Of a stretch of 64,000 bases of DNA, positions 6,277-56,407 are shown in pieces. This stretch comes from Rhodospirillaceae bacterium (GTDB lineage: Bacteria; Pseudomonadota; Alphaproteobacteria; CACIAM-22H2), in NCBI GenBank assembly GCA_022843945.1, contig JALHMR010000010.1, positions 62,001 to 126,000 on the forward strand, written 5' to 3'. Below the pieces are notes generated by a model. That model was given only the letters and a program-made list of their open reading frames with translations, was not told the origin of the DNA and did no database searches. Every line of letters begins with the position of its first letter. Position 1 is the first letter of the stretch. The position numbers and the translations under genes are program-made.

Positions 6277-6286
6277 AGGGCCGATG

Positions 6287-10333: not shown

Positions 10334-10336
10334 AAA

Positions 10337-11356
10337 ATGTTGCGGTCGGCGGAGGCTGTATTCCGTGTCGACGCGGGTCCGGCCATTGGTGGCGGCCATC
10401 TTATGCGATGTCGAGCGTTGGCTGACGTTTTGCTTGCCCGTGGATGGAAGATCACCTTTGCCCAGCGAGAGCCATTGGCAGACAGCCTGCCTGAGAGCTT
10501 CCGCGTCGCCGTTGTCGAGCGCGACACGACGCCGCTGTCGGACATCGTCGCTTTGAAAGCTGTCGATCTCCTGGTGGTTGACCACTACGGCTGGACCGCT
10601 GTCGAAGAAAGTCGAAATCGTCCGTGGGCACGAAAGATCCTGGTCATTGATGACCTGGCAGACCGCGAGCATGATGCGGATATGCTTGTCGATCCCGGTG
10701 CCGGCCGGCGGGCGACGGACTACAAAGGGCTCGTTCCGCCACGAACCCCCGTCCTCGCTGGTCCGCGCTATGCTGTGTTGCGGCAGGCTTTCAGCGCCGT
10801 CCGAAGCCATTCTCTCAGCCGTCGCGGCGGCCGGCGGGGCGTGGATCGAATTCTTGTCTCGTTCGGTGCCGTCGACGGAAAGAAGATGACATCGGTGGCA
10901 GTCGAAGCTTTGGCAGCCGGCGGCTTTACTGGACGGGTCGACATCTTTCTGGCGGAGTCGGCGACCCACTATCCGCGAGTGGTCGAGCGCGTAGAGAAGC
11001 AGGGGGCTGCGTGGAGCGTTCATCCCTGGGCGGAGAACATCGCGGAATTCATGGCGGCGTCGGACTTGGCGATCGGTGCTGCCGGCGTTAGCGCTCTTGA
11101 GCGTTGTGCCGTCGGACTCCCGAGTATTATCGTTCAGACAGCGGAGAACCAGCAATGCAATGCGCTGGCATTGGCGAAAGCTGGCGCAGCCATATCACTC
11201 GGCCACTCGCATGAGGTTACAGTTGAACGACTAACAGGCGCCATCGATGCGGTGTGCAAGGATCCCACTCTGATGGGTGCGCTCTCACGCGCCGCTGCCG
11301 CCCAGTGTGATGGAGCGGGCGTAGAACGGATCCTTGGGCGGCTCGAAGCATTATGA
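10337..11356 (+). CDS. pseG: UDP-2,4-diacetamido-2,4,6-trideoxy-altropyranose hydrolase-like (PseG-type)
   Basis: This GT-B-fold nucleotide-sugar hydrolase removes UDP from the diamino-trideoxy sugar before condensation with PEP. The N-terminal RVDAGPAIGGGHLMRC motif includes His21, corresponding to the catalytic His of PseG, and GAAGVSALERCAVGLPS near residue 250 is the nucleotide-sugar site. At 339 residues it has normal length. It is the third recognisable step of a Pse-type pathway (after PseB and PseC). The acetyltransferase PseH that should act before it is not visible in the window, so the hydrolase may accept a differently N-acylated substrate. That inference links it to the formyltransferase next door. 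Confidence 0.85.
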   Translation: MLRSAEAVFRVDAGPAIGGGHLMRCRALADVLLARGWKITFAQREPLADSLPESFRVAVVERDTTPLSDIVALKAVDLLVVDHYGWTAVEESRNRPWARKILVIDDLADREHDADMLVDPGAGRRATDYKGLVPPRTPVLAGPRYAVLRQAFSAVRSHSLSRRGGRRGVDRILVSFGAVDGKKMTSVAVEALAAGGFTGRVDIFLAESATHYPRVVERVEKQGAAWSVHPWAENIAEFMAASDLAIGAAGVSALERCAVGLPSIIVQTAENQQCNALALAKAGAAISLGHSHEVTVERLTGAIDAVCKDPTLMGALSRAAAAQCDGAGVERILGRLEAL

Positions 11357-11431
11357 TGCTGGGAATCCATTGGCCGATCGGCACCGTCAGCAGTGGCAGC
11401 GCCGTGCCCCAGCTTCGCTGGATTGAACCGA

Positions 11432-12118
11432 GTGGCTGAAATCCCTGTGTGGTGGAAGCGGCCCCGTCGTGTCGCGGTGGTGGTCGACAACCCCAGCTGG
11501 ATCCTTCCTTATGCCAAGGATCTGGTAGCGAAGGCGGCCAGTCTCGGGGACGACGCGACACTCCTCGACACTTATGATGCGGTTCCAGATGCGGCAGTCT
11601 GCTTCTTCCTTGGATGCATACACATCGCTCCAGCTAGCGTCTTGCGCCGTGCGGCGCGCTGCCTCGTCGTGCACGAGAGTAATTTGCCGAAAGGCCGCGG
11701 GATGTCGCCGCTAACCTGGCAGATCATTGAAGGCGCTCAGGAGATCCCGATCTGCCTTATTGAGGCGGCCGAGAAAATGGATTCAGGGGCGGTAATTTAC
11801 CGCGATGTCCTCGAATTTTCCGGTCACGAACTGCTCTCTGAACTGCGCCGCCTGCAAGGCTTGGCCACCGCGGCTCTTTGCTCGAGATATCTTGAGGAGG
11901 ATGAACCTCCGCAAGGCAAGGCTCAGACCGGCACCGCGACTTTCTACCGGAGGCGGACCGCGGCCGACAGCGCCCTAGATCCCACGCGATCCCTGGCAGA
12001 ACAGTTCGACCTTCTGCGCACGGTAAACAATAAGCTCTATCCTGCGTTCTTTGATTTCCGTGGACAGCGATACTGGCTCACGATCAGCAAGTCACATCCG
12101 GCAGATGAGCAGGGCTGA
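11432..12118 (+). CDS. Formyltransferase family protein (sugar N-formyltransferase-like)
   Basis: The fold is that of methionyl-tRNA/sugar formyltransferases: HESNLPKGRGMSPLTW around His81, then EKMDSGAVIY with Asp117, corresponding to the catalytic His and Asp. The Asn of the usual NxH is replaced by Val79 (VVH), a departure from the classical triad. Start is uncertain: GTG 11432 gives 228 residues and GTG 11393 gives 241; neither has a strong Shine-Dalgarno. It sits between pseG and the ATP-grasp gene. N-formylated nonulosonic acids are known, so N10-formyl-tetrahydrofolate-dependent acylation of the PseC amino group, replacing PseH, is a reasonable hypothesis. Substrate is not proven. Confidence 0.72.
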   Translation: MAEIPVWWKRPRRVAVVVDNPSWILPYAKDLVAKAASLGDDATLLDTYDAVPDAAVCFFLGCIHIAPASVLRRAARCLVVHESNLPKGRGMSPLTWQIIEGAQEIPICLIEAAEKMDSGAVIYRDVLEFSGHELLSELRRLQGLATAALCSRYLEEDEPPQGKAQTGTATFYRRRTAADSALDPTRSLAEQFDLLRTVNNKLYPAFFDFRGQRYWLTISKSHPADEQG

Positions 12119-12158
12119 TGACGCGCGGTACGATTTTTGCCGGCGGGGACGATAGGCC

Positions 12159-13208
12159 GTGACTGATCGAAAAACGAGCTTCCTGATTACCTGTGGCGGC
12201 GGCCCAGGGATATTGGCGCAGGTTGAAGCGCTGAAAATATCCCGGCGCCACGACGCCCGGATCATCCTTGCGGACAGCAACCCGGCATCCGGGAATCTCT
12301 TTCTACCGGAAGTCGACGCCCGCTATGTCATACCGCCTTGCGGCGACCCGGCGTTCATTGACGCTCTCATTCGGCTCATTGTGCGCGAAAACGTCTCGTT
12401 CATGTATTCCGGACTCGACGAAGAGATGCCGGTGGTTGCCCTTCATCGACATGAGATCCAGGCCGCGGGCGCGCGTGTTCTGCTCCCCGGGCATGACGCC
12501 TTGATGGGAGCGTTTGACAAGGAAGTGACGCTCCGCCGGCTGGATGGAAAGGTGTTGATGCCTCGCACCTTTGTCGTGGACGACGAATTCGACGATGGTC
12601 GCGTGTGGGATACCTTGGCGGGTCGGCTCATTATCAAGGCCGCAGCGTCTCGGGGTGGGCGCTTTATCTTCGTCCCTGATGATCGCGAGGAGTACGATTT
12701 TTATCTGCGCCGCGTCAGACGTGTTAACAAGCAGACGGGGATGCGATTTCTGGTTCAGGCGCTTATCACCGGGACGGAGTTCAACGTCAGCTCGCTTCAC
12801 GACGTCACAGGGCGTGCAATCTATGCCGTCTCCAGACGAAAGTTCGAAACCCGGCCGGTTAAGAGCGTCACCACAGCGGCGGTCATCGAACGCAACGACC
12901 TGGTCATAAAACAGGCGCTGAATGTCGTGAGCGCGATGAACCTGATTCCCGGTTTCAACAATGTCGAAATCATCGTTTCGAAGGACGATGGTTTGCCTTA
13001 CTTCATTGAAATCAATGGCGGTCGTACGGCAGCCCAGGACGCTAACCTGGTCGCCTCCGGCATAAACCTCACCGACCTTCTTATCGACCTTGCCTGCGGC
13101 CGCGACGTGCCAACCATCGACCATCCGGAGGATGGGCTGGCATCGCTGAAGATACGGCGTGACGTCATCGTCCCGTACTCAAAGATAGAAGGCATTGCGA
13201 CGCCGTGA
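12159..13208 (+). CDS. ATP-grasp domain ligase (carbamoyl-phosphate-synthase-like)
   Basis: The 349-residue protein has an N-terminal Rossmann-like pre-ATP-grasp domain (SFLITCGGGPGILAQVEAL) and an ATP-grasp domain. The ATP site is marked by LIIKAAASRGGRF (residues about 155-167). Metal-binding residues are in FNNVEIIVSKDD and FIEINGGRTAAQD. These enzymes join a carboxylate to an amine or other nucleophile through an acyl phosphate. In this locus a likely job is attaching an amino acid or small acid to an amino group of the nonulosonic sugar, or making a precursor of that group. Start is GTG 12159. Similar proteins are often annotated carB-like, but no true CarB glutamine-dependent partner is present. 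Confidence 0.78.
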   Translation: MTDRKTSFLITCGGGPGILAQVEALKISRRHDARIILADSNPASGNLFLPEVDARYVIPPCGDPAFIDALIRLIVRENVSFMYSGLDEEMPVVALHRHEIQAAGARVLLPGHDALMGAFDKEVTLRRLDGKVLMPRTFVVDDEFDDGRVWDTLAGRLIIKAAASRGGRFIFVPDDREEYDFYLRRVRRVNKQTGMRFLVQALITGTEFNVSSLHDVTGRAIYAVSRRKFETRPVKSVTTAAVIERNDLVIKQALNVVSAMNLIPGFNNVEIIVSKDDGLPYFIEINGGRTAAQDANLVASGINLTDLLIDLACGRDVPTIDHPEDGLASLKIRRDVIVPYSKIEGIATP

Positions 13209-13262
13209 CGCCATCACGCGAGCTTTCTGCCGATCAGCTCGACCTCATGGCAATCCAGGGGA

Positions 13263-14252
13263 GTGCCTGCTTTGGATTCTGACAGACACAATCTGACGAT
13301 CATCGCGGAAGTAGGCTCAAACCATAACGGCAGTCTCGATCAGGCGTTTGAGCTGATTGATGTAGCCGCCGACCTCGGTGCCGATGTGGTCAAGTTTCAG
13401 AGCTTTCTCGCTGATCAGCTGCTTGCGGCCGACGATCCCAACTACGAACGGATCAAGCGCTTGGAAGTGCCGCGCGCCTGGTATCCTCTTCTCATGGAGC
13501 GTTGCGAAAAGCGCGGCGTGTCGTTTCTTTCGACCGCCACGAATGAAACGACCATGGCCTGGATGGAGGAGCTCCATGTCGCCGCCTACAAAGTGGCATC
13601 ATGCAATATCACGCATCGGCCTCTGCTGGACCAGCTGATAGCCACGGGTAAGTCGGTCATCGTTTCGACCGGGATGGCAACACTGGACGAGATCCTGGAA
13701 ACCGCACGGCACTTCCGGTCTCGCGGTTTGCGGTCCTTCAGCTTTCTTCACTGCGTCTCGAAATACCCGACCCCGCCGGAGGACATGCGGCTGGGAAACA
13801 TACCGGTGTTGCGTGCGCTACTCGGCTGCCCGATCGGCCTCTCGGATCATTCTCCCGGTTCTCACATCGCCGTGGCAGCCGTGGCCCTAGGCGCCACAAT
13901 CATCGAAAAGCATATCTCATTGGACAAGACCGGCATTGGGCTTGACCATGAGGTGGCGGTCGTGCCGCAGACCTTCGGGGAGATGTGCCGGCAGCTTCGC
14001 GAAGTCGCGGCCGCGCTAAACCCCGATTTTTCGCCAGATCTTCAGAATATAAGAACGATGCGTCGATCGGTACGCTTCACGCGGCCATTAACGGCTGGTT
14101 CAGTCGTTCAGGCCGACGACCTAAAGGTAACTCGCCCTGAAGATGGGCTGAAGCCCGAGTTCTTCGACACACTCATCGGCCGACGCCTCACCCGGGATGT
14201 TGCAATCAACGAGGCGACCGAATGGGGTCAATTCGAAGGAGCGCATTCGTGA
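13263..14252 (+). CDS. pseI: Nonulosonic acid synthase (NeuB/PseI/SpsE family)
   Basis: The enzyme condenses phosphoenolpyruvate with a 6-carbon amino sugar to form a 9-carbon keto acid. The TIM barrel starts with TIIAEVGSNHNGS and contains DVVKFQSF, KVASCNITHRPLL, VSTGMA, LHCVSKYPTP, GLSDHSPG and IEKHISLDKTGIGLDHE, all conserved in NeuB. The C-terminal SAF (antifreeze-like) domain follows RRSVRFTRPLTAG. Length 329 is slightly short for the family. The annotated start is GTG 13263 but a purine tract AGGGGAG abuts it; TTG 13272, eight bases further on, may be better spaced. The PseB/PseC/PseG neighbours favour a pseudaminic-like product over sialic or legionaminic acid. Confidence 0.88.
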   Translation: MPALDSDRHNLTIIAEVGSNHNGSLDQAFELIDVAADLGADVVKFQSFLADQLLAADDPNYERIKRLEVPRAWYPLLMERCEKRGVSFLSTATNETTMAWMEELHVAAYKVASCNITHRPLLDQLIATGKSVIVSTGMATLDEILETARHFRSRGLRSFSFLHCVSKYPTPPEDMRLGNIPVLRALLGCPIGLSDHSPGSHIAVAAVALGATIIEKHISLDKTGIGLDHEVAVVPQTFGEMCRQLREVAAALNPDFSPDLQNIRTMRRSVRFTRPLTAGSVVQADDLKVTRPEDGLKPEFFDTLIGRRLTRDVAINEATEWGQFEGAHS

Positions 14253-19880: not shown

Positions 19881-21044
19881 ATGACGAAATTCATTTGCCA
19901 TCATCCATGGACCCACTTCGAGGTCAATAATCCGAACGGCAATGTCACGATGTGTTGTGACAACTCCACGGTCCTCGGGAACGTGAACCGGGGCACGATC
20001 GAAGAGATATGGAATGGTCCCGGCTATCAGGACATTCGTGCGCGAATGCGGGACGAAGGCGCGCATGCCCTATGCCCTCATTCCTGCCCGGTGCTTCACG
20101 GCCTGAAGAAATATCAGAACCTCGAATGGCATTCGGACCTGCCTCCGGGCTCCGTCGCCAAGAAAAATGCAGAACGCAACGACGAGGAGTTCACCAAGGG
20201 CGTAACCGTCCTGGATTCGAAGCCGCGCTGGATGCGGTATGCGTACAGCTACAAGTGCAATCTGGATTGTTATCATTGTTATCAGCGCGATGATGCGCTG
20301 TTGAACGACACGCTGCCTGATTCCTTCATGACGCAGGTCAACGAGCTTGCGCCATATTATCAAGTGATTCTGTTCTTCGGCGGCGAGCCGTTTCTCTACA
20401 AACCGGTCCTGAAAATGATGGAGGAGATCGAAGTCGAATCGGGCTGCAAGTTTTTCATGATCACCAATGGAACGCTACTCACGGACCGCATGTTCGAGAA
20501 TCTCGAAGGTCGTAACATCGGCTTGTTTGCTGTTTCCCTGGATGCCGCGTCGGCCGGGATCTTCGACGTTCTTCGCGTGCGCGGGCGCACGGCCTCCTGG
20601 ACTACGCTGATGGGCAATCTCAAGAGAATTGCGGAGCTGCACCGGCGCAAGGGTTTTGCCTTTCAGATCAGCATGACTGTCAACACCGTGAACTGCACCC
20701 AGATTGAAGAGTTCGTCGATCTCGGCCTGTCAGTAGGCGCCGAGCCGCTTCTGCTGCTGGTATCCAATCCCGATGAAACGGCAGAGTTCCAAAAGCGGTA
20801 TCTCTGCTTCAGCGCACAGCAGCTCTCGGATATCGATTTGCAGATCGCGCGCTCGTTGGAGAAAGTCCGGACCCGTGGCATGAAGGAGGCGGAGGCGGGG
20901 CTGATCAGGCTGCGAAGCATGTTGCGCGATCACAGGCGCCGCGCCAACAGCGTGGCTGCATTTCAAATGCGGCGCATCGCCCGCACCGTTTTCCATTGGT
21001 TGCCTGGCCCTGTCCAGTATCGTATTCGCCATTACCTGAGCTGA
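19881..21044 (+). CDS. Radical SAM protein with N-terminal SPASM-like cysteines
   Basis: The 387-residue product carries a radical SAM cluster at Cys126/Cys130/Cys133 (YKCNLDCYHC), followed by FFGGEPFLY and VSLDAASAGIF barrel segments. The SPASM-like signature comes before the core, not after it: Cys6 (CHHPW), the pair Cys25/Cys26 (NVTMCC), LGNVNRGTIEEIWN, and Cys65/Cys69. The C-terminal 70 residues are basic and contain no obvious auxiliary cluster. The enzyme would bind extra Fe-S clusters with a swapped domain order. Its substrate is unknown; neighbours (flippase, methyltransferase) suggest action on a lipid-linked or nucleotide sugar. Start ATG 19881 lies 46 bases after the ABC gene. Confidence 0.8.
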   Translation: MTKFICHHPWTHFEVNNPNGNVTMCCDNSTVLGNVNRGTIEEIWNGPGYQDIRARMRDEGAHALCPHSCPVLHGLKKYQNLEWHSDLPPGSVAKKNAERNDEEFTKGVTVLDSKPRWMRYAYSYKCNLDCYHCYQRDDALLNDTLPDSFMTQVNELAPYYQVILFFGGEPFLYKPVLKMMEEIEVESGCKFFMITNGTLLTDRMFENLEGRNIGLFAVSLDAASAGIFDVLRVRGRTASWTTLMGNLKRIAELHRRKGFAFQISMTVNTVNCTQIEEFVDLGLSVGAEPLLLLVSNPDETAEFQKRYLCFSAQQLSDIDLQIARSLEKVRTRGMKEAEAGLIRLRSMLRDHRRRANSVAAFQMRRIARTVFHWLPGPVQYRIRHYLS

Positions 21045-21975: not shown

Positions 21976-21986
21976 TGGCCTAAGTG

Positions 21987-23600
21987 ATGCCGGTGCTGTT
22001 GAGGACGCGGCGAGCTCTGCCGCCGGTGGACGCATATGACTTCTGGGCTTCTATCGGCTCGCATGGCGATATGCCGCTGGATCCGGGCCGCCGCGCCCCC
22101 GGGCTGGCCTTTGCCCTGGAGGACGCCTTCACGGCGATCACCGAGGATTGGCTCGCCTTAGCCCGCGAATTGTCGGGCGATCCGTCCGCAAGCCTTGCTC
22201 ACGCTCCTGCCTGCGCAGCCAATGTCTCCGACCTGGGTCAGATGATGGCGTGGGCGCGCCTTGTCGCGTCATGGGCGGCAGGGACGTCCCGGGTGCTGAT
22301 TATCTGCGACGATCCCTGGATGTATCGCCACCTTTCTCAGATGCCCGGCGTGCTAGCTGGCCGTGCGCCACGATTACGCGGCTCGGGGTCCCGCCTATGG
22401 CTGCGCGGCTTCGCCGCTCGAACGGCGGCGACACTGCGATTTGTCAGGGCCGCGGTCCATCTGCGCACGACTGTTCCAAAGGACCAAAGCTACATCCTGG
22501 TTTATGGCCACCCGAAGGCGTCCGCCGATGGCCTGGACGGCTACTTTGGCGACCTTATGCGGTGGTTGCCCGATCTTCGGCGTGTGCTGCATGTCGACTG
22601 TGGACGCGAGCTTGCCGAGAAGCTGAGCGGAGACGGACGTTCCGTAAGCCTTCATGCTTTTGGATCTCTATTGTTCGCCGCTCGACTTCCATTCGCCAAG
22701 TGGCGACCGTCTCGTAAGCATCGTGAGGGTCGCTTCGGCTGGCTTGTTCGCCGCGCCGCGGCCCGAGAAGGGGGAAGCGGCCAAGCGGCGGCGATTTGCT
22801 GGCAGATTCACTGTCAATCGCGCTTCTTGAAGCGGGCGCGCCCGCGCATCGTGGCGTGGCCGTGGGAAAATCACGGCTGGGAGCGTCGCCTCGTTCCAGC
22901 CGCGCGGACACGAAAGATCGCGACGATAGGCTACCAGCACTCGGTGGTTGGCGCGCTGATGCTGAACTACAGCCCCCATTCGGGGGCAGGCCCGGACAAG
23001 CTGCCTGATCGTATCGTGTGCAATGGCGAAGCGACCAGGCGCCGTCTGATCCGCTTCGGTGTTCCGGCACAGCGCCTGTCTATTGGAGGAGCCTTGCGCT
23101 ATACCACTCCGCCTAGGTCATGCCATCACGACGATAACGGGCCGGTTTTTGTAGCTCTCCCTTTTGATGCTGAAATTGCCCGGCAAATGGTTGCAGCGTG
23201 TCGGACAGCAACAAGCCATGGCTGGGCATTTCTGCTGAAGGATCATCCCATGACCCCCTTTAATTTTAGGCCGGAACCAGGACTGGAGCGAAGCCCCGGA
23301 CCGCTCGGGGACGCTGGTGGTCTACGCGCTGTACTCTACGCCGCTACAGCTGTCGGGCAGGAAGCCATCCTGGCGGGAATCCCGACTTTGCGCTACTTGC
23401 CTGACGATCGTGTCGCGATCGACGTCCTTCCGGAGGGAATTGAGGTTGCCTCCGTGACGTATGAAACCCTCGCCGAGGCACTTGTCCGGCCATCCATACC
23501 CACGCCTTTAGACCCTTCATCGCTCTTCGGTCCGGTAGACCGTAACCTGTGGAAGGCCATTCTCGGCACGCCAAGCGGGGACTCATGCCCGGCAGCCTGA
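21987..23600 (+). CDS. Unknown protein, possible GT-B-type glycosyltransferase
   Basis: A 537-residue protein with no family that I can name. It starts at ATG 21987 (GTG 21984 is directly upstream in frame). The second half contains ATIGYQHSVVGALMLNY, a DRIVCNGEATRRRLIRFGVPAQRL segment, AFLLKDHPMTPF, and AVGQEAILAGIPTLRYLP. This order (peptide QH loop, then name-new-strand, KDHP, then an EA..G.P site) is that of GT-B enzymes such as capsule and CDP-glycerol transferases. The first 200 residues are arginine-rich and show no clear domain. A glycosyltransferase role is inference from the fold-like pattern and locus. It overlaps the aldolase gene by 16 bases. Confidence 0.5.
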   Translation: MPVLLRTRRALPPVDAYDFWASIGSHGDMPLDPGRRAPGLAFALEDAFTAITEDWLALARELSGDPSASLAHAPACAANVSDLGQMMAWARLVASWAAGTSRVLIICDDPWMYRHLSQMPGVLAGRAPRLRGSGSRLWLRGFAARTAATLRFVRAAVHLRTTVPKDQSYILVYGHPKASADGLDGYFGDLMRWLPDLRRVLHVDCGRELAEKLSGDGRSVSLHAFGSLLFAARLPFAKWRPSRKHREGRFGWLVRRAAAREGGSGQAAAICWQIHCQSRFLKRARPRIVAWPWENHGWERRLVPAARTRKIATIGYQHSVVGALMLNYSPHSGAGPDKLPDRIVCNGEATRRRLIRFGVPAQRLSIGGALRYTTPPRSCHHDDNGPVFVALPFDAEIARQMVAACRTATSHGWAFLLKDHPMTPFNFRPEPGLERSPGPLGDAGGLRAVLYAATAVGQEAILAGIPTLRYLPDDRVAIDVLPEGIEVASVTYETLAEALVRPSIPTPLDPSSLFGPVDRNLWKAILGTPSGDSCPAA

Positions 23601-24343
23601 GGTCTCGCCTGCAGGCCGGAAAGCCGTGCATCGGAGGCTGGCTAACTATACCGTCGGTCACGGCGGCGGATGCGCTTGCCGGGTGCGGGTTCCATTGGCT
23701 TGCGATCGACTTCGAGCATACGTCATTTGGTCTGGAGACGGCGGAGGCTTGTATTATCGCCGCGGAGCGCTGGGGGGTCGCCCCGCTTGCTCGACTTCCT
23801 CATGCTGATCCGTTCCTGGCGCGTCGATTGCTGGATATCGGCGCTGTTGGGTTGATCATTCCCGCTGTGGAGAATGCACAGGCTTTTGACGGGTTCGCCC
23901 GCCACTGCCTCTACCCCCCTCAAGGACGAAGGGGTGTTGGACTGCCGCGCGCGAACGGCTACGGCCACACATTCAAGGCCTACCGCGAGACATTCCGGCC
24001 GCTCCTGATTCCGCAGATCGAGAGCCGAAAAGGGGTGGAAAGTACGGGCGACCTCGCTCGAGCTGACTATGTCGACGCATTCTTCGTCGGACCTTACGAC
24101 CTATCGGAGGACCTTGGCGCAGCCGGAGACTTCGGCAGTTCTCAGTTCGTCTCCTTGCTCGCAAAGGCCCGCGCCGCAGCGGCGGCTCACGGCAAGCCCT
24201 TTGGGATACACCAGGTAAAGCCTGATCCGGAGGAACTGCGGGAGCGGATCTCGGAGGGATATCGCTTTGTCGCCTATGGCACCGATGTCATCGCTCTCCG
24301 CGCAGCCCTGGGCCGCCCAGTGGAAATCGTGGAGAGCCTATGA
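23585..24343 (+). CDS. HpcH/HpaI-family class II aldolase
   Basis: A 252-residue metal-dependent pyruvate aldolase. The family's key residues are seen: His45 in DFEHTSFG, Arg70 in APLARLPH, metal ligand Glu146 in IPQIESRKG and metal ligand Asp172 in VGPYDLSEDLG. Known members cleave or form 4-hydroxy-2-oxo acids from pyruvate and an aldehyde. Placed directly before a KdsB-like enzyme and a sugar dehydrogenase, it could build a 2-keto-3-deoxy sugar acid instead of degrading aromatics; this is inference. The ATG at 23585 lies 16 bases inside the preceding gene and its stop overlaps the next start by ATGA. A catabolic origin with recruitment into the locus is possible. Confidence 0.85.
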   Translation: MPGSLRSRLQAGKPCIGGWLTIPSVTAADALAGCGFHWLAIDFEHTSFGLETAEACIIAAERWGVAPLARLPHADPFLARRLLDIGAVGLIIPAVENAQAFDGFARHCLYPPQGRRGVGLPRANGYGHTFKAYRETFRPLLIPQIESRKGVESTGDLARADYVDAFFVGPYDLSEDLGAAGDFGSSQFVSLLAKARAAAAAHGKPFGIHQVKPDPEELRERISEGYRFVAYGTDVIALRAALGRPVEIVESL

Positions 24344-25113
24344 CCGGGCGCTGCCATTGCGTGATCCCGGCGCGTATGGGGTCGAGCCGGTTTCCCGGTA
24401 AGCCGGTGAAACGCCTGCTCGGGCTTGAACTTGTTTCGCATGTGGAACGGCGTTGCAGGCTTTACACCGGTTTCGAGCGTGTCGTGGTCGCAACCTGCGA
24501 CGAGGAGATCCGTCAAGCGGTTACCATGCGCGGGGGTGAGGTGGTAATGACATCCGATCAACACTCCCGTGCCACGGATCGCGTTGAAGAAGCCGTGGCC
24601 AACATGAACGCCGGCCTGGCAGACGATGATTTGGTCGTCATGGTCCAAGGAGATGAGGTTCTGGTCACACCGGAAATGCTGGGGGCCGTCGTTTCCGATC
24701 ACCGCAGATCCAAAGCGATGGTCGTCAACCTCATCTCACGATTGCGTCGCGCGGAAGATCAAGACGACCCCAACACGGTGAAGGTTGTGGCCGACCCGCA
24801 GCACAACGCGCTGTTCTTCTCTCGATCGGCGATCCCCTCTCGGGCACGCCAACTGGACGTGGCGGTCTATCAGCAGACCGGCATCATCTCATTCCAGGTT
24901 GCTTTTCTGAGAAAGTTTTCTTCGCTGCCGCAAACGCCGCTCGAAATCGCTGAATCGGTCGACATGCTGCGCTTGATCGAGCATAGGCTGGCACTGCGTG
25001 TAGTGCACACCGACACCGAAACGATCGGTGTCGATACCATTCAGGATCTAACGCGGGCCGAGGAAGTGTTGCGACAAGACCCGACGACAAGCCTTTACAT
25101 GGGCCGAGAATGA
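24340..25113 (+). CDS. KdsB-like 3-deoxy-ulosonate cytidylyltransferase
   Basis: The 257-residue protein follows the CMP-Kdo synthetase pattern: VIPARMGSSRFPGKP at the N-terminus, ERVVVATCDEEI, GGEVVMTSDQHSRATDRVEE, VMVQGDEVLV (metal-binding Asp), DPNTVKVV, ALFFSRSAIP, and GVDTIQDL near the end. Housekeeping KdsB usually has QGDEPLI and HIGIYAYR; here these read QGDEVLV and QTGIISFQ, so specificity may differ. It would activate a 2-keto-3-deoxy acid as a CMP derivative. Its place between an aldolase and a Gfo/Idh/MocA oxidoreductase, each overlapping by ATGA, suggests a dedicated substrate made by these neighbours, not Kdo for lipid A. Confidence 0.8.
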   Translation: MTGRCHCVIPARMGSSRFPGKPVKRLLGLELVSHVERRCRLYTGFERVVVATCDEEIRQAVTMRGGEVVMTSDQHSRATDRVEEAVANMNAGLADDDLVVMVQGDEVLVTPEMLGAVVSDHRRSKAMVVNLISRLRRAEDQDDPNTVKVVADPQHNALFFSRSAIPSRARQLDVAVYQQTGIISFQVAFLRKFSSLPQTPLEIAESVDMLRLIEHRLALRVVHTDTETIGVDTIQDLTRAEEVLRQDPTTSLYMGRE

Positions 25114-26174
25114 GCCAGGACAGGTTGAGGGTGGGTATCGCCGGTTTCGGCGTTGTCGGGCGGCGGCGGTATCGTTTCATCGCGGCCCATCCAGATCTAT
25201 TACCGGTGGCGGTAGCGGATCAGAAATTCGCGGACGATAGAGCAGTCGTCGATGGACTCGTAAGGTTCCGGGATTACCGGCGGCTGCTGGCAGAGGATCT
25301 GGATGTCCTCTTCGTGTGCTTGAGCAATGATGCCGCCGCCGCCGTAACGATTGCGGGTCTTGAGAACGGCATGCATGTCTTCTGCGAGAAGCCGCCGGGT
25401 CGCGATCTTGACGAAATGACCCGGGTCATGGCGGTGGAAGCGAAGAACCCGAAGTTGAAACTGAAATATGGCTTTAACCATCGCTACCACGATTCAGTCA
25501 TTGATGCGCTCGAAATTGTCCGCTCTGGTGCGCTGGGCGGCATCATCAACCTGCGGGGGGTCTATGGAAAATCCAAGATCATAAACTTCGAGTCAGACTG
25601 GCGCACCGAGAGAGCAATTTCCGGAGGAGGCATCCTTCTCGACCAGGGCATTCATATGGTCGATTTGATGCGCCTATTCGCTGGAGAGTTCAGGGAGATT
25701 CACAGCTTCGTCAGCAATAGCCATTGGCACCATGACGTCGAAGACAATGCCTATGCCATTATGCGGACGCAGGAAGGTGTGATTGCCATGCTGCACTCGA
25801 CCGCGACCCAATGGCGCCACCGCTTCAATCTGGAAATAGCGCTAACCGAGGGTGCCCTTGTTCTCGGCGGTCTTTTGACGAACTCGAAGAGCTATGGTGC
25901 AGAGACACTCACGATCGCGCGAAAGACCGCGCATGATCGAGGAGATCCGGTCGAGGAGCTTAAGGAGTATGCGAGCGACCCTTCATTCGAGCGCGAGATT
26001 GCGGAATTCGCCGCCGTCATCTTGAACGACAGCGCCGTACAGAGCGGCAATTCAGGTGAAGCGTACGGGACGATGGAGACTGTATTTCGTATCTATTGCG
26101 CGGACGCCTCCTGGGCAAAACAGTGGGATATTCGCTGCCAGTCCGCTAGTGCAGGCCGGGTAGTATCACCATGA
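25110..26174 (+). CDS. Gfo/Idh/MocA family sugar oxidoreductase
   Basis: A 354-residue NAD(P)-dependent dehydrogenase. The Rossmann motif GIAGFGVVGRRR starts at residue 9. EKPPG at residues 93-97 includes the conserved lysine. GGGILLDQGIHMVDLMRLF contains the DxGxH motif whose His is part of the active site. The family oxidises or reduces hydroxyl or keto groups of sugars, inositols or nucleotide sugars. Overlaps with the KdsB-like gene and the methyltransferase gene (both ATGA) tie it to the proposed keto-acid module. Which carbon it acts on cannot be told. Confidence 0.85.
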   Translation: MSQDRLRVGIAGFGVVGRRRYRFIAAHPDLLPVAVADQKFADDRAVVDGLVRFRDYRRLLAEDLDVLFVCLSNDAAAAVTIAGLENGMHVFCEKPPGRDLDEMTRVMAVEAKNPKLKLKYGFNHRYHDSVIDALEIVRSGALGGIINLRGVYGKSKIINFESDWRTERAISGGGILLDQGIHMVDLMRLFAGEFREIHSFVSNSHWHHDVEDNAYAIMRTQEGVIAMLHSTATQWRHRFNLEIALTEGALVLGGLLTNSKSYGAETLTIARKTAHDRGDPVEELKEYASDPSFEREIAEFAAVILNDSAVQSGNSGEAYGTMETVFRIYCADASWAKQWDIRCQSASAGRVVSP

Positions 26175-26878
26175 GCGCTGACCGCAACGGACCGGCGGCG
26201 ACTCATTTGCTTGCCTATCGTCGGGAGCTGATGAGCCGTCCCGATAGTGATGCCGACTATCAACTCTGGCTGAAGCGTCGGGTTCTTGCGACCTATGCCA
26301 ACCTCCTGGATATGAACGCCGGAGGGGAGCTAAGCGACGGAAAACTTCTTGATACGGGGTCTGCGGATGGCTCGTTCGCAAAAGCCTGCGGAGAAATCGG
26401 GTTGACCTGCCACAACCTCGACGCAGACCAAGGGATCGATTTTGAGCGAGACCGCTTCCCGTTCAGCGACCGCTCATTCCGCTTTGTAAATTCGAACTCG
26501 GTCATCGAACATCTGCGCGACCCAGCCAACTACCTCAAGGAAATCCGAAGGACCATGACGGATGACGGGTACTTGTTCCTAGTCACCCCTCACTGGCCAT
26601 ACGCGTGGAAAGAGTTCTACGATTCCTATACTCACTACCAGCCTTACTCTTACAAAGCACTGCGAGGTTTGCTCCGAGCCTACGGGTTCGAGCCGCTTGC
26701 ACTGGTTCCTTGGCTGGTTATGAAAAGCCGCCTCTTTTGGCAGATACCCGCGCCGGCATCGTTCTGGATCGCGAAGAACCTGCTCTTCTTCCGGGGCACC
26801 ACGGCGCGGGCTCCGTCCTTCCTAAGAGGGAAAAGCTCGACGTTGTTGTGCCTGGCGCGAAAGAGCGGCGATTCGTGA
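26171..26878 (+). CDS. Class I SAM-dependent methyltransferase
   Basis: A 235-residue methyltransferase. Motif I is LLDTGSADGSFAKAC at about residue 58; the motif II acidic residue is in HNLDADQGID; motif IV region reads FRFVNSNSVIEHLRDPANYL. HYQPYSYKALRGLLRAYGFE near residue 155 is typical of Methyltransf_11/23 proteins in glycan loci. It starts by ATGA overlap with the oxidoreductase, and ends ten bases before the one-TM micro-protein. It most likely methylates the sugar made by the aldolase/KdsB-like/MocA genes or the growing chain. O- versus C-methylation cannot be decided. Confidence 0.75.
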   Translation: MSADRNGPAATHLLAYRRELMSRPDSDADYQLWLKRRVLATYANLLDMNAGGELSDGKLLDTGSADGSFAKACGEIGLTCHNLDADQGIDFERDRFPFSDRSFRFVNSNSVIEHLRDPANYLKEIRRTMTDDGYLFLVTPHWPYAWKEFYDSYTHYQPYSYKALRGLLRAYGFEPLALVPWLVMKSRLFWQIPAPASFWIAKNLLFFRGTTARAPSFLRGKSSTLLCLARKSGDS

Positions 26879-29075: not shown

Positions 29076-30626
29076 ATGGCCAATATCCTACTGATTAACC
29101 CGTCCTACGAGCCGACTTATGGCGGCACAAAGGGTGGCGTCCCCAATCCGATCTACCCGGCTCTGGGTCTGGCTGCCATTGCCGGCGGTGCACTTGAGCG
29201 TGGCCATAAGGTCAAGATTCTCGACCTCTCCTGGCGCGCCTACGACTACCGCCTGGTCCAAGACGAAGTGCGCGCCTATCGCCCCGACGTCGTCGGCATT
29301 TACGCGACGACGCCGTTGATGAATCAGCTGCGCGATCTCAGCATCGTCATCAAGGACATCTCGCCGAACATCCGGGTCGTTGGCGGCGGGCCGCATGTCT
29401 CGGCGCTTCCCTCGGAGTCGCTGCAGGAATCGATGCTCGATGCGGTCTTCGTGGGCGAGGCGGACTATACGTTCAGCCAGTATGTCGAGGCGAGCAATCC
29501 CGGCGACGTCCGCGGCTTGTATTTCAAGCCGGCAGGGTTCCGCTTCGGGGATGCGGTGCGCTCGACGGGCATGTCGCCGCTGATCGAGAAGCTCGACGAT
29601 CTGCCGATGCCGGCGTGGCATCTTTACAACCTCGAGGACTACCACCGCATCTCGCGCCTGCTGGTGCGACGGACGCCGGTCACCAACGCCGAGTTCTCCC
29701 GCGGTTGCGTCTTCAAGTGCGATTTCTGCGCCAGCAAGATCACCATGGGGCTGGGATATCGCAAGAAGTCCCCCGCGCGTTGTGCGGAGGAAGTCAAGAT
29801 GATGTACGACATCGGCTTCCGGGAATTCTGGCTTTCCGATGATATCTTTACATCGGATCAGCGCTGGGCCGTCGAGGTGTGCGAGGCCATCGCGGCCAAG
29901 AACGTCGACATGCTGTGGACCTGCTCCAACGGCATTCGTGTCGAAAGCGCGGATGAGTCCCTGTTCCAGTCGCTGAAGAAGGCCGGCTGCTATCGCGTGT
30001 CGTTTGGCTTTGAGAGCGGCAACGACGCTATTCTCAAGTCCTTCGGCAAGGGGGGTCGCGCCAGCGTGGAGCAGGGTCGCTTCGCCGTGCAGACGGCACG
30101 CTCAGCGGGGCTCGATACGGCCGGCAACTTCCTCATGGGGCTGTCGCACGATACGGAAGCGACGATGTGGGACACCATCCGCTACGCCCGTGCCTTGCCG
30201 CTGGACATGATGAAATTCGGGATCGCCATCGCTTTCCCGGGCACGCCGATGTTCAAGGATTACGCCAAGCAGGGAATGGTGAAGTCCTACAATTGGGACA
30301 ACTATTTCATCTACTCGGACGATCTCCTGTTCTCGCATCGGCACCTGTCGTACGGCACGATCAAGAAGTTCATGGACATCGCCTTTAGACGGGCCGTGCT
30401 CTTCAATCCTGGTTTCGTGCTCCGCCGGTTCTGGCACGGTATCAAGAACGGCGAGTTTTTCTGGGATCTCTATTATCTCGTCAAATTCTTCCTGGCGCCG
30501 GCCTCACGGGCGGCGCAGGCCTCGAGCTATTACGCCGAGGAGCGCTGGCCGGTTTTTGATTTCGAGAAGGCGCCTGTGGCCGAGATCAACTATCAGCAGG
30601 CCAAAAAGAGCGTCAAAGTCGCCTAA
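29076..30626 (+). CDS. B12-binding-domain radical SAM protein
   Basis: A 516-residue class B-like radical SAM protein. Residues 1-140 form a Rossmann-like cobalamin-binding domain (ILLINPSYEPTYGG, LGLAAIAGGALERGHKVKIL, VVGGGPHVSALP, VFVGEAD) lacking a DxHxxG motif, as is usual for this group. The radical SAM cysteines are Cys211/Cys215/Cys218 (CVFKCDFC), with FWLSDDIF, VSFGFESGND and NFLMGLSHDT following. Such enzymes methylate unactivated carbons or do other radical chemistry. It resembles the fragment at the left edge. The 87-base gap before it shows no clear promoter. Its TAA overlaps the tail of the opposite-strand GT2 gene by four bases. Confidence 0.85.
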   Translation: MANILLINPSYEPTYGGTKGGVPNPIYPALGLAAIAGGALERGHKVKILDLSWRAYDYRLVQDEVRAYRPDVVGIYATTPLMNQLRDLSIVIKDISPNIRVVGGGPHVSALPSESLQESMLDAVFVGEADYTFSQYVEASNPGDVRGLYFKPAGFRFGDAVRSTGMSPLIEKLDDLPMPAWHLYNLEDYHRISRLLVRRTPVTNAEFSRGCVFKCDFCASKITMGLGYRKKSPARCAEEVKMMYDIGFREFWLSDDIFTSDQRWAVEVCEAIAAKNVDMLWTCSNGIRVESADESLFQSLKKAGCYRVSFGFESGNDAILKSFGKGGRASVEQGRFAVQTARSAGLDTAGNFLMGLSHDTEATMWDTIRYARALPLDMMKFGIAIAFPGTPMFKDYAKQGMVKSYNWDNYFIYSDDLLFSHRHLSYGTIKKFMDIAFRRAVLFNPGFVLRRFWHGIKNGEFFWDLYYLVKFFLAPASRAAQASSYYAEERWPVFDFEKAPVAEINYQQAKKSVKVA

Positions 30627-32860: not shown

Positions 32861-34543
32861 TCACGACGCGACTTCACCGACACGCCAGCGGGCGGCCATA
32901 TCCATCAGGCGCTGCTCGAGGACGGTTCGCGGCTGAAAGCCCCGCTTGAACAGCGCCCCGAAGATCCGCAGTCCCCGTCGTGGCGACCGGATAAAGGAGA
33001 TCAGGTAAAACAAGCTCATGCCGATGATGCGGTAGTACGCAAGCTCGCGGCCACTGACGTTACGGCAATATGACTTGTTCACCGTGACGTCGAATTGAAG
33101 CAGGAGGTCGTTGAAGTACGAGTCGTTAAGCACGGGAATTGTCCCGTCCTTGCGCAGCTCGTCAAATAGTTCGGAGCCGGGATACGGGGTGAACACGGAG
33201 ATCAGGCAGTCATGCGCACCGAGTAGCGCGACCTTCACCCCATAAAAGATGGTTTTCCAGCAGTCGCGCCTGGTCTCGTGAGGAAAGCCGATAATCAGGT
33301 TAATCTTGCCGGTATGGCCGATGTGCAGCGCCTGACGCAAGCTCTTGGTCAGGCGATCCAGCTTCACTTTCTTCTTGATGACTTCGAGAGAATTCTCGGA
33401 TCCGCTCTCCGGAGCGTAAGTGAGCAGACGGCATCCGGTGTCGTAGAGCGCCTGGAGAGTTTCCGAGTCGAGCGCCTCGGAGCGGGTCCCTGACGGCAAC
33501 TGCCAGATGATGCGAAGATTGCGGCGCTTCAGCTCGTTGCAGAACTCGATCGTCCAATCCTTCTTTACGATCGCCGTCAAATCCTCAAAATCGATACTGT
33601 TCGCCCCATACGTCGAGATCAACCATTCGATCTCGTCTACGACGTCGGCCGGCGGGCGCATCATGTATCGGGTCGACCACATGAAGGGATTCGAGCAGAA
33701 CGTGCACTGATAGGGGCAGCCGCGGGTTGCCAGAATTAGCATGTTGCGGCCGTAGGGGATTCCGTGAGTCCAAGATCCTTTGAAGAAGTTGTCGATCTCG
33801 CACAAGTGCCATGCCGGGCGCGGCAGGTTGGCAAAGTCGGCGATCCGGCGGCCTGGTCCGTTACGCACGAACGAACCATCCGCGCCGAGATAGGCAAGCC
33901 CCGGAAGATCGGACATGTCGAGATCGCCGAAGTGGCGCCAGGCCAGCTCCAGCAGGGCGAGTTCACCCTCACCGGTGATGACGTAATCGACGTCGGGACA
34001 ATCGCGCAGGACGTATTCCGCCATGGCGGAAGGATGCTCGCCGCCGAGCACGATGACGATATCCGGATAGGCCCGCTTGACCGCCTCGATGATCTCCCTG
34101 TACTGCGGCCACCCCTGCGAGAACATCAGCGAGACACCAAGCAGGCGGGTCTCGGGACCGACGCGACGTACGATCTGTTCGGTGGTCAGCCCCTGATACT
34201 TGAGGCTCCCATCCCGCGACGTGCGAATGTCGAAGATGCCTTCGCCGATGCCGTCGATCACCTCGGCATCGTATCCGGCGGCTTCGAGCATGCCGGCCAG
34301 GTAGGCGGGTCCCAGGGGAACCGCCAGGGGCGTGCTATAGGAGCTCGCCGAGAAGATCGCCGGCGGGCGCAGAATCTTCACCACTTCACGGCTCCGCGCC
34401 GCAAAACGCTTCAAGGCATCAGCGACCGAAAGCTCATTAAGGGGCTGGACGAAGCCTCGCTTGGCGTGCGAAGGACGCGCCTCAGCTTTCAGGGTGTCCG
34501 ATGCTGTTGCTGCGATACTAGACATTGGAAATTGGTTGCGCAC
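32861..34543 (-). CDS. B12-binding-domain radical SAM protein
   Basis: A 560-residue protein if it starts at GTG 34543 (complement); ATG 34525, six codons in, is an equally good start. After about 55 poorly conserved residues comes the B12-binding domain: LGPAYLAGMLEAAGYDAEVID, LLGVSLMFSQGW, VLGGEHPSAMAEY, YVITGEGE. The radical SAM motif is Cys276/Cys280/Cys283 (CPYQCTFC), followed by IDFEDLTAIV, LTYAPESGSEN and LIIGFPHETRRD. It is the third B12-type radical SAM gene of the locus and has the longest C-terminal tail. It heads the minus-strand operon with galE and GT2. Substrate unknown. Confidence 0.85.
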   Translation of the reverse strand: MRNQFPMSSIAATASDTLKAEARPSHAKRGFVQPLNELSVADALKRFAARSREVVKILRPPAIFSASSYSTPLAVPLGPAYLAGMLEAAGYDAEVIDGIGEGIFDIRTSRDGSLKYQGLTTEQIVRRVGPETRLLGVSLMFSQGWPQYREIIEAVKRAYPDIVIVLGGEHPSAMAEYVLRDCPDVDYVITGEGELALLELAWRHFGDLDMSDLPGLAYLGADGSFVRNGPGRRIADFANLPRPAWHLCEIDNFFKGSWTHGIPYGRNMLILATRGCPYQCTFCSNPFMWSTRYMMRPPADVVDEIEWLISTYGANSIDFEDLTAIVKKDWTIEFCNELKRRNLRIIWQLPSGTRSEALDSETLQALYDTGCRLLTYAPESGSENSLEVIKKKVKLDRLTKSLRQALHIGHTGKINLIIGFPHETRRDCWKTIFYGVKVALLGAHDCLISVFTPYPGSELFDELRKDGTIPVLNDSYFNDLLLQFDVTVNKSYCRNVSGRELAYYRIIGMSLFYLISFIRSPRRGLRIFGALFKRGFQPRTVLEQRLMDMAARWRVGEVAS

Positions 34544-34582: not shown

Positions 34583-35455
34583 TTGGCTGTGGCGACGCTC
34601 AAAAAGCTCCTAAATGCTGCCGGAATCGATGGCCGCGCCTGGTTTCAGACACTGGCTGCGGCCAGTCTGGAGGCCGCCGTCCGTGAGCAGGGGCTGGCCG
34701 ACACCATCGCTCGGCTGCGGACGATCGTGCCGGAGACGAGGGATCAGTACACCGCGACGTTCGATTCCGCTGAATATCAGCGATACTGGGAATTGAAGAT
34801 GCGGGGCCTGCATGCGTTTCAGGTGCAGGCGGCGCTGGAGGGGCTGGCCCGGATAGACGGTCAGGCGCTGACCGTCGCCGATATCGGCGATTCCTCGGGC
34901 AACCACGCGGCCTATCTGAAGGCGTTGGCGCCTGCCGGAAAGCTTGGCCGTTTCGTCAGCGTCAATATGGACCCGGTTGCCATCGAGAAAATCCGGGCAA
35001 AGGGTGGTGAGGCTGAGCTAGCCCGGGCAGAAGGGCTGCCGACAGACCTCCGGGCCGACCTCTATCTCTGCTTCGAAACGCTGGAGCACCTTACCGACCC
35101 GGTGCGGTTTCTACACAAATTGGCGCGCGAGTCGGGGCGAGGAATCGTTCTGTCGATGCCCTATCGGCGGGTCAGCCGTTTCGGGGGCGAGCTGTTGCGT
35201 TATCCGCTAGACAAGCTGCCCGCTGACCTGACTCCTGAGGCAGTCCATATATTCGAGCTCTCTCCGGAAGACTGGAAACTGCTGGCGCGGTTTTCCGGGT
35301 TCCGCTGTGTATTCGAGCGACGTTATCTCCAGTATCCCACGGCGCATCCTCTTCGGCTGCTGGCCCCGATGTGGCGCCGACTGGATTTCGAGGGTTTCAT
35401 AGCGCTCTTCCTGATACCTGATTCGTCACTTTCCAGCCGCTATACCGGCTGGTGA
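34583..35455 (+). CDS. Class I SAM-dependent methyltransferase-like protein
   Basis: A 290-residue protein with motif I as VADIGDSSGNHAAYL at about residue 93 (an atypical glycine-poor form), an acidic residue in VSVNMDPVAIEKI, and DLYLCFETLEHLTDPVRFL at the motif IV position. VLSMPYRRVSRFG near residue 190 resembles methyltransferases near glycan genes. The start is uncertain: TTG 34583 or GTG 34589, with no clear Shine-Dalgarno. It opens the third plus-strand operon and its TGA overlaps the heparinase-like gene by GTGA. The altered motif I (DSSGN in place of GxGxG) leaves open that it binds SAM poorly. Confidence 0.65.
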   Translation: MAVATLKKLLNAAGIDGRAWFQTLAAASLEAAVREQGLADTIARLRTIVPETRDQYTATFDSAEYQRYWELKMRGLHAFQVQAALEGLARIDGQALTVADIGDSSGNHAAYLKALAPAGKLGRFVSVNMDPVAIEKIRAKGGEAELARAEGLPTDLRADLYLCFETLEHLTDPVRFLHKLARESGRGIVLSMPYRRVSRFGGELLRYPLDKLPADLTPEAVHIFELSPEDWKLLARFSGFRCVFERRYLQYPTAHPLRLLAPMWRRLDFEGFIALFLIPDSSLSSRYTGW

Positions 35456-40925: not shown

Positions 40926-40985
40926 ATGACGACGAGGCAGAAAATGACCTGTGAAGCCTGCGGGCACCGGAGATCCGCGCTATGA
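40926..40985 (+). CDS. Candidate 19-residue micro-ORF before the SDR gene
   Basis: ATG 40926 opens a 19-codon frame (MTTRQKMTCEACGHRRSAL) whose TGA overlaps the SDR start as ATGA (40982-40985). It contains CxxCGH. It may serve only translational coupling, or be chance. Its upstream GCAGAAG tract is a weak ribosome site. Confidence 0.2.
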   Translation: MTTRQKMTCEACGHRRSAL

Positions 40986-41701
40986 GTGGCGCCCTGGCAG
41001 GAAGGGTTGCCGTTGTCACCGGCGCGACCCGCGGGATCGGCTGGGCCATTGCCGAGCGATTCGTCGCCGAGGGTGCGACGGTTGTCGCCACCGGCCGTCG
41101 CGGAGATGCTCCGAGGCCGGCCGGCTGCTCTTATGTCTCTGTCGATCTCGATGACGATTCTTCAACCGCGGACTTCCTCGCGGAGCTTGGTCGCCTCCAG
41201 CCGGATATCCTGGTCAACAATGCTGGCGTCAACAAGGTATCGCCCTTCACGGAAATCGCCCGTGCCGATTTCGATCGCATCCAGCGCGTCAATATCCAGG
41301 CTCCTTTCCTTTTCTGCCAGGCCGTCGTGCCGGGCATGCGGCGGAAAAAATGGGGACGCATCGTCAATATTTCCTCGATATGGGGAAAGCTGGGCAAGGA
41401 GTTCAGGGCGTCATATGCGGCGAGCAAGTTTGCCTTGGCCGGGATGACGTCTTCGCTCGCCGCTGAAGTGGCCAAGGACGGAATCCTGGCCAACTGCGTC
41501 TCTCCAGGCCCCATCGAAACAGAGATGACCCGTAAGAACCTGACGCCTCCAATGCTCGCGGAGCTTTTGCAGCTCGTGCCCGCCGGCCGTTTGGGTCGCG
41601 CCGAGGAAGTGGCGGCGCTGGTCGCCTGGCTGGCAGGCCCCGAAAACACCTTCGTTGCCGGCCAGAATATCGCTATTGACGGGGGCATGACGCGTGTCTG
41701 A
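40982..41701 (+). CDS. Short-chain dehydrogenase/reductase
   Basis: A 239-residue classical SDR. The NAD(P) site TGATRGIGWAIA begins at about residue 13, NNAG is at residues 80-83, the catalytic Ser is in VNISSIWG, and Tyr/Lys in SYAASKFAL. The C-terminal GPENTFVAGQNIAIDGG is typical of FabG-like members. It overlaps the 3-dehydroquinate-synthase-like gene by eight bases, so the two probably act in sequence: the cyclase product would be a ketone that an SDR could reduce. Assignment as FabG of fatty-acid synthesis is unlikely in this setting. Confidence 0.85.
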   Translation: MSGALAGRVAVVTGATRGIGWAIAERFVAEGATVVATGRRGDAPRPAGCSYVSVDLDDDSSTADFLAELGRLQPDILVNNAGVNKVSPFTEIARADFDRIQRVNIQAPFLFCQAVVPGMRRKKWGRIVNISSIWGKLGKEFRASYAASKFALAGMTSSLAAEVAKDGILANCVSPGPIETEMTRKNLTPPMLAELLQLVPAGRLGRAEEVAALVAWLAGPENTFVAGQNIAIDGGMTRV

Positions 41702-42764
41702 GTCCTTCTCCGTCCAGTCGCATACCGGTCCTTATCAGGTTCATTTTGCCGGCGGGGCGCTGGCGCGCCTTAACACCCTCGTAAGCGGCACGATTCATGT
41801 CTTGGTCGATGCTCGCATTGCCCGGCTGTACGAGGAGCCTCTAAGGGGCTTGCGCGCCGCCTCCGTGACCCTGGTGGAAGCAGAGGAGCGCGCGAAGACT
41901 CTCGAAGAGATGCCGCTCTATGTCCGCAAGCTGCTCGAACAGGGGTTCCGGCGACATCACCGACTGGTGGCCATCGGAGGCGGCATCATTCAGGATATCA
42001 CCTGCTTCCTGGCCGCGACGATGATGCGCGGTGTTGATTGGCTTTTCTTTCCCACGACACTGCTTGCACAAGCCGATTCGTGCATTGGCTCGAAGAGCTC
42101 AATCAACGTCGGAAGTTTCAAGAACGTTCTCGGTACCTTTACGCCCCCGCGGGAGGTCTTCATCGATGTCGGTCTGTTGCGCACGCTCGACGAGCGGGAT
42201 GTGCGGTCCGGCGTGGGAGAGATCTTGAAGGTCCATGCGATCGACGGGCCCGAATCATTCCAGGACGTCGCCAAGGCCTATGATCGGCTGTTCGAGGACG
42301 ATGCGGTGCTCGCGCACTATATTCAGCGTGCCCTCCGCATCAAGAAGCGCTTTATCGAAGAGGACGAGTTCGATCGCGGGCCGCGACAGATTTTCAACTA
42401 CGGCCATACCTTCGGACATGCCATCGAAGCGGCGACTGAATTTGCCGTCCCTCATGGCATCGCCGTTACGATGGGAATGGATCTGGCTAATTTTCTCGCC
42501 TGGCGTCTTGGCCATTCCGACCGGCAGACGTTTGACCGGATGCATCCGACGCTGCGTCGAAATTACAGGGGGTACGAAACTCTCTCTATTCCGGGCGACA
42601 GGTTTTTTGCGGCACTTCAGCACGACAAGAAGAATATCGGGCAGAGAGAGGTGACGGCGATATTGCCAGACATGCGGGGCTGCCCGGTCAGGGTTCAACG
42701 GCCTGCCGACGCGCCGTTTCAGGACGCCTGCACCTCCTATTTCGAGGGTTGCCGTCTTGCGTGA
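41694..42764 (+). CDS. 3-dehydroquinate synthase-like sugar-phosphate cyclase
   Basis: A 356-residue AroB-superfamily protein. GGGIIQDITCFLA is the NAD-binding signature, and TTLLAQADSCIGSKSSINVG the conserved loop. The zinc ligands are Glu176 (GVGEILK), His238/His242 (YGHTFGHAIEAA) and His254 (VPHGIAVTMG). Typical AroB has 'GG..GD..GF.A..Y.RG' with GD after GG; here the Gly-Asp is preceded by IIQ. Relatives include 2-deoxy-scyllo-inosose and 2-epi-5-epi-valiolone synthases. Coupling to an SDR in a glycan locus suggests cyclisation of a sugar phosphate into a cyclitol or carbasugar for the polymer. Substrate is inferred, not shown. Start GTG 41694. Confidence 0.78.
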   Translation: MSESFSVQSHTGPYQVHFAGGALARLNTLVSGTIHVLVDARIARLYEEPLRGLRAASVTLVEAEERAKTLEEMPLYVRKLLEQGFRRHHRLVAIGGGIIQDITCFLAATMMRGVDWLFFPTTLLAQADSCIGSKSSINVGSFKNVLGTFTPPREVFIDVGLLRTLDERDVRSGVGEILKVHAIDGPESFQDVAKAYDRLFEDDAVLAHYIQRALRIKKRFIEEDEFDRGPRQIFNYGHTFGHAIEAATEFAVPHGIAVTMGMDLANFLAWRLGHSDRQTFDRMHPTLRRNYRGYETLSIPGDRFFAALQHDKKNIGQREVTAILPDMRGCPVRVQRPADAPFQDACTSYFEGCRLA

Positions 42765-56381: not shown

Positions 56382-56407
56382 TGTTGCGCTCACGCAGCGG
56401 GGCCGGA

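Follow-up and report, generated by a model that had tools for sequence, protein, structure and literature searches.

Linkage of an HpcH/HpaI-type aldolase to a divergent KdsB subfamily suggests a KdsA-independent route to a CMP-activated ulosonic acid

The DNA analysed here, referred to as the window, is a stretch of 64,000 nucleotides (positions 62001-126000 of contig C10) from a draft genome of 5.38 Mb. Four plus-strand open reading frames (ORFs) occupy 23585-26878 and are joined by three ATGA overlaps, as a preliminary description of this DNA had reported. They encode an aldolase (ALD), a predicted cytidylyltransferase of the KdsB type (KDSB), a Gfo/Idh/MocA dehydrogenase (GFO) and a methyltransferase (Table 1). 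The gene run starts one gene before ALD, with an ORF for a GT-B-like protein that overlaps the ALD start by 16 bases. The best named model for GFO is inositol 2-dehydrogenase, with a score under its cut-off.

Table 1. Features of the gene run and its candidate partner genes (window positions unless prefixed with C10)
Feature	Position	Strand	Remarks
GT-B-like surface-carbohydrate protein	21984..23600	+	Distant TIGR04326 (LIC13510) relative, candidate CMP-sugar transferase
ALD, HpcH/HpaI-type class II aldolase	23585..24343	+	252 aa; PF03328 and conserved residues
KDSB, predicted KdsB-subfamily CMP-ulosonate cytidylyltransferase	24340..25113	+	257 aa
GFO, Gfo/Idh/MocA dehydrogenase	25110..26174	+	354 aa; PF01408 and PF22725
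Methyltransf_23 methyltransferase	26171..26878	+	235 aa
Methyltransferase, possible pathway part	34583..35455	+	39% to the c65 methyltransferase after KDSB in L057, L074 and L076
SDR (short-chain dehydrogenase)	40982..41701	+	59-61% homologues after GFO in L005 and L008
AroB-related cyclizing sugar-phosphate phospholyase	41694..42764	+	TIGR04425, 454 bits (cut-off 400)
D-2-hydroxyacid dehydrogenase	C10:42997-43920		Same contig, 18 kb upstream of window; 62% to the L005 copy

Several other features of the region are visible in the window. A separate cluster of nonulosonic-acid type at 5263-14252 contains PseB, PseC, an aldo-keto reductase, NeuA/SpsF, a GSA-type aminotransferase, PseG, a formyltransferase, an ATP-grasp protein and NeuB (recognized partly by eye and partly by profile), and a second NeuB gene lies at C10:57704. 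Five radical-SAM-like ORFs, some of B12-binding type, were seen by eye within the surface-glycan region (65-1204, 2392-3453, 19881-21044, 29076-30626 and 32861-34543). The ORF at 58199-60334, beside a heparinase-like ORF (56381-58195), reads as a zinc alcohol dehydrogenase-like half joined to a Gfo/Idh-like half.

The four genes had been described as a unit, a view that related loci do not bear out. The methyltransferase is not conserved, finding no more than weak matches among the neighbours of those loci, and the four do not include a dehydrogenase, an SDR or an AroB-like cyclase. L005 and L008, the two alphaproteobacterial relatives with the best preservation, have the order ALD-KDSB-GFO-SDR-AroB-like-dehydrogenase, and a Prochlorococcus locus (L030) carries ALD, KDSB, GFO, the AroB-like gene and the dehydrogenase in one run. 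Homologues of GFO with 59-61% identity stand beside KDSB in L005, L008 and L071; in L030 and L064 they are in the vicinity. The partner genes of the window's genome are instead scattered over about 62 kb: SDR and the AroB-like gene lie 14 kb downstream of the four-gene run, and the D-2-hydroxyacid dehydrogenase gene, whose next best paralogues reach only 35-38% to the L005 copy, lies outside the window. TIGR04425 is passed not only by the window's AroB-like protein but also by the homologues from L005, L008, L030 and L032; among 289 genomes of the class, the window's is the only one over the cut-off, and the sub-cut-off matches are mostly those expected of ordinary AroB. The TIGR04425 cyclase is located beside the ALD-KDSB set in L005, L008 and L030 and at most 10 kb from KDSB in L032.

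A GT-B gene with 51-53% identity precedes ALD-KDSB in L005, L006 and L007 as well. The window protein scores 62 bits against TIGR04326, under the cut-off of 250, and is predicted to adopt a GT-B fold (mean pLDDT 70). It contains an invariant His421-Pro422, to be compared with the HP motif that binds CMP in Kdo transferases (PMC12887879). Structure models of this protein and of a nitrifier protein (c5) are both GT-B, and since their best matches are mostly UDP-GlcNAc 2-epimerases at TM values of about 0.4-0.57, they do not allow the donor to be named.

ALD matches PF03328 with 80 bits (Pfam cut-off 25) and in profile searches scores far under the equivalog cut-offs of HpcH/HpaI aldolases. The catalytic residues listed in the preliminary description (H45, R70, E146 and D172) are intact, as is D84, and these five are kept in all or nearly all KDSB-linked aldolases. 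The linked aldolases also have in common F130, Y171 and H209, which are not seen in GarL or HpaI. Judged by its sequence, ALD could work in either direction.

KDSB scores 155.9 bits against TIGR00466 (cut-off 155.2) and 251 against PRK05450.1-5 (cut-off 193), and is 38% identical to a KdsB copy on contig C3 of the same genome and 33% identical to the genome's housekeeping KdsB. In a maximum-likelihood tree its subfamily is monophyletic with support of 100/99, apart from the canonical KdsB of the same genomes; one row labelled canonical (L186) is the same sequence as subfamily member L028. Record titles assign members to Pseudomonadota, Bacteroidota, Chlorobiota, Thermodesulfobacteriota, Planctomycetota, Cyanobacteriota, Bdellovibrionota, Acidobacteriota, Chloroflexota and others. 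A search of a plasmid collection returned only distant KdsB and Gfo homologues.

Across the 75 aligned subfamily sequences, the CTP-loop Arg/Arg/Lys (R12, R17 and K21) and two Mg-binding Asp (D105 and D232) are invariant, corresponding to R10, R15, K19, D95 and D219 of A. aeolicus KdsB (PMC3149649). All 75 also have C53, R77 (in HERxxDR), M101, Q179, D208-M209 and E214, where the canonical set, consisting of three sequences (KpsU, E. coli KdsB and the genome's own KdsB), has Asp or Ala, Ser, Asn, His, Glu-Gln and variable residues, respectively; these changes were located by alignment rather than from a substrate-bound structure. The His of KHxGIY has thus become Gln179 and the Gln of ExLEQLR Met209 in every subfamily sequence, and N130 stands in for a canonical Thr. 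Two segments of KDSB, QGDEVLV and QTGIISFQ, had been proposed as departures from the Kdo norm. Both are present and QTGIISFQ is part of the true subfamily signature, but QGDEVLV was dropped as a substrate-loop clue: it is a minor variant of QGDEP, which 92% of the subfamily has, and keeps the catalytic Asp.

The idea that KDSB might be the only kdsB of its genome was likewise dropped. A separate canonical copy is located at C1:49074, and kdsA and waaA were also found, so lipid A does not require a further Kdo enzyme. The absence of any other kdsB, which the preliminary description had listed within a condition that would count against its idea, therefore does not apply. The KdsB homologue on C3 (C3:110008-110703; L085:8000-8902, minus strand) is accompanied by a HAD hydrolase and GT-like ORFs, among genes that resemble prophage structural genes by eye. 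It has the subfamily residues Gln179, Asn130 and Met209 but not Arg77 or Met101.

From the 278 loci of one pattern-seeded scan we took the best 80 and examined which genes lie no more than 7 kb from KDSB. ALD was close to KDSB in 67 of these 80 loci and a D-2-hydroxyacid dehydrogenase, the commonest partner, in 70; a HAD phosphatase was found in 54 and an NAD-epimerase in 52. Nitrifiers, which are related to one another, contribute 36 of the 80, and every one keeps both ALD and the dehydrogenase near KDSB; among the other 44 loci the aldolase is present in 31 and the dehydrogenase in 34. As a same-genome control, ALD was near 14 of 16 subfamily loci but 0 of 17 canonical KdsB loci (Fisher p 1.5e-7). 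The pairing is far from what chance would give, and it recurs in many phyla.

ALD nevertheless does not seem to be always needed. It was not near KDSB in 13 of the best 80 loci (some on short contigs), and six of the genomes concerned (G352, G295, G354, G300, G355 and G307, some of them partial assemblies) contain no member of the ALD family at E 1e-20, from which it appears that KDSB and the dehydrogenase can work without ALD. Because the loci lacking ALD mostly keep the dehydrogenase, the latter may be nearer the core of the set. Often these loci also have a fused glycosyltransferase-alcohol dehydrogenase. A gene of cluster c21 lies near KDSB in seven of them (L017, L028, L040, L043, L062, L063 and L065), and its full-length copies (e.g. 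in L028) look like a fusion of a glycosyltransferase with a zinc alcohol dehydrogenase. The c21-bearing loci may represent another form of the pathway.

The prominence of the dehydrogenase raises an alternative in which oxidation yields the ulosonate. An aldonate would come from the action of a sugar dehydrogenase and a lactonase, the D-2-hydroxyacid dehydrogenase would oxidise it at C2 and KDSB would activate the product, with ALD making a precursor or recycling the keto acid. The retention of the dehydrogenase in most loci without ALD is consistent with this scheme, as are its best models, which include PGDH, GhrB and PdxB (the family of 2-ketoaldonate reductase and PdxB), and the 6-phosphogluconolactonase gene that follows in most Nitrosomonas loci, although this lactonase may be housekeeping. 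Oxidation would, however, leave an aldolase that is so frequent a neighbour and has invariant residues of its own without a clear job, and we regard this alternative as rather unlikely. Judged by sequence, an enzyme from the PGDH/GhrB/PdxB family might either feed hydroxypyruvate to ALD or oxidise an aldonate at C2.

The nitrifiers comprise 36 Nitrosomonadaceae genomes, several of them isolates (G294, G302, G305, G310, G313 and most of G315-G350). Except for one short fragment in G328, the subfamily member is their sole KdsB homologue, and all 36 members fall under the kdsB cut-off that the window's KDSB barely passes. In profile searches none of the 36 has a KdsA over the cut-off, unlike the window's own genome; their KdsA matches of roughly 105 bits resemble the sub-cut-off ones of controls such as B. 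subtilis and Thermotoga, as DAHP synthase would give. LpxC was found in none and WaaA in one. A near-absence of Kdo2-lipid A genes has been described for N. europaea (PMC3087551). With no KdsA, LpxC or canonical KdsB, the nitrifiers cannot be using their KDSB on KdsA-made Kdo. Of the 35 nitrifier genomes with the set that were tested for NeuB, 28 have none, leaving out marginal matches in two of the 28 that are placed where DAHP-synthase-like matches fall. Most nitrifiers with the set thus lack the usual PEP-dependent synthases for ulosonates, and ALD, encoded in the KDSB operon, is the obvious candidate for making the ulosonate. All 36 genomes appear to lack lipid A, judging from the missing LpxC, KdsA and canonical KdsB, though these bacteria are Gram-negative. 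Some Nitrosospira-type loci (L032, L037, L053 and L066) keep genes resembling LptF/LptG permeases, as seen by eye, near the KDSB operon.

These genomes bear on two further alternatives. One is that the product is plain Kdo, with ALD making it from pyruvate and D-arabinose in place of KdsA and KDSB being a divergent CMP-Kdo synthetase. Kdo aldolase chemistry from pyruvate and arabinose is established, and KDSB keeps the catalytic residues and just exceeds the curated kdsB cut-off. Yet genomes such as the window's already carry kdsA and kdsB, no aligned subfamily member keeps the His of KHxGIY or the EQ of ExLEQ, and the nitrifiers, with no LpxC and with WaaA missing from 35 of 36, are without a known lipid A acceptor to which Kdo could be added; plain Kdo therefore seems improbable. 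The other is that ALD and KDSB serve different steps, KDSB activating a nonulosonic acid made by NeuB and ALD being catabolic. The NeuB gene at 13263-14252 and the second NeuB gene on the contig do lie near the cassette, but the cluster of the former includes a NeuA/SpsF-like gene of its own (8307-9026), most of the nitrifiers tested have no NeuB, and the ALD-KDSB linkage is both widespread and specific. We consider such a division of roles very improbable.

The reading that we favour, if only by a slight balance of probability, is that the cassette forms the core of a KdsA-independent route whose product, a CMP-activated ulosonic acid distinct from Kdo, is destined for a surface glycan. Sugar-modifying enzymes would prepare an aldehyde, here Gfo/Idh, SDR and the AroB-like cyclase and elsewhere the NAD-epimerase and HAD phosphatase. 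ALD would join this aldehyde to a 2-oxo acid, which could be pyruvate or, supplied by the linked D-2-hydroxyacid dehydrogenase, hydroxypyruvate; KDSB would use CTP to activate the resulting ulosonic acid as a CMP-sugar; and the GT-B protein encoded directly upstream would transfer it. Gene content, linkage, the kept and the altered residues, monophyly and the lack of standard Kdo enzymes in nitrifiers with the set are observations, whereas we infer each of these reactions, their order, the sugar, its methylation and the glycan. The preliminary description had envisaged an aldolase route to a 2-keto-3-deoxy acid that does not use PEP. The linkage and the nitrifier genomes make a KdsA-independent route to a CMP-ulosonate likely, while the 2-keto-3-deoxy product is unproven, as hydroxypyruvate in place of pyruvate could give a non-deoxy product. 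Given the AroB-like and inositol-dehydrogenase-like genes, we also considered bradyrhizose-like or other cyclitol-fused sugars as the product.

In the open-licence full-text literature searched, no pathway combining an aldolase with KdsB was described, and we rate the route as a variant of CMP-ulosonate biosynthesis new to the papers searched. A bolder version, which we put forward tentatively as the less probable case, is that a route built on ALD and independent of PEP and KdsA yields a novel CMP-activated ulosonic acid in many phyla, possibly one that is not 3-deoxy owing to the use of hydroxypyruvate, and that this sugar is the main acidic envelope sugar of ammonia oxidisers without lipid A genes. 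If the favoured route is right, it would involve a C-C bond-forming step unused in known CMP-sugar pathways, would predict that many bacteria contain a new acidic sugar and would offer a handle on envelope decoration in nitrifiers without a lipid A pathway. Current naming rules can label KDSB proteins as CMP-Kdo synthetase, even where the subfamily sits in genomes unable to make Kdo in the known way.

The set resembles several known systems in part. ALD has the same catalytic and metal residues as GarL (1dxe), HpaI (4b5s), YfaU (2vws) and a hydroxyketoacid aldolase (6r62), with which it would have the chemistry of a 2-oxo acid and an aldehyde in common, but differs from them in its subfamily residues and its biosynthetic gene context. 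Nonulosonic acid pathways (NeuB/PseI/LegI with NeuA/PseF) likewise supply a CMP-activated ulosonic acid for surface glycans, the role proposed for the cassette, but they depend on a PEP-dependent NeuB synthase and a NeuA-type cytidylyltransferase, which are not the linked pair here. The Kdo8N pathway of Shewanella is another variant way to an ulosonic acid that uses a KdsB homologue; it reportedly starts from KdsA-made Kdo and employs the aminotransferase KdnA and the alcohol dehydrogenase KdnB. As the preliminary description noted, the cassette is unlike it: neither the four genes nor the annotated recurrent neighbours include a KdnA aminotransferase or a KdnB-like alcohol dehydrogenase. Like the Kdo pathway itself (KdsD-KdsA-KdsC-KdsB, WaaA), the set has a KdsB homologue, whose CTP and Mg residues are unchanged, and in other lineages it also comes with a HAD phosphatase and a SIS isomerase. 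The set differs in that conserved residues in the sugar-binding half of KDSB are altered relative to canonical KdsB, and in that KdsA is absent from the neighbourhood, and altogether from the nitrifiers, with ALD and the 2-hydroxyacid dehydrogenase present instead.
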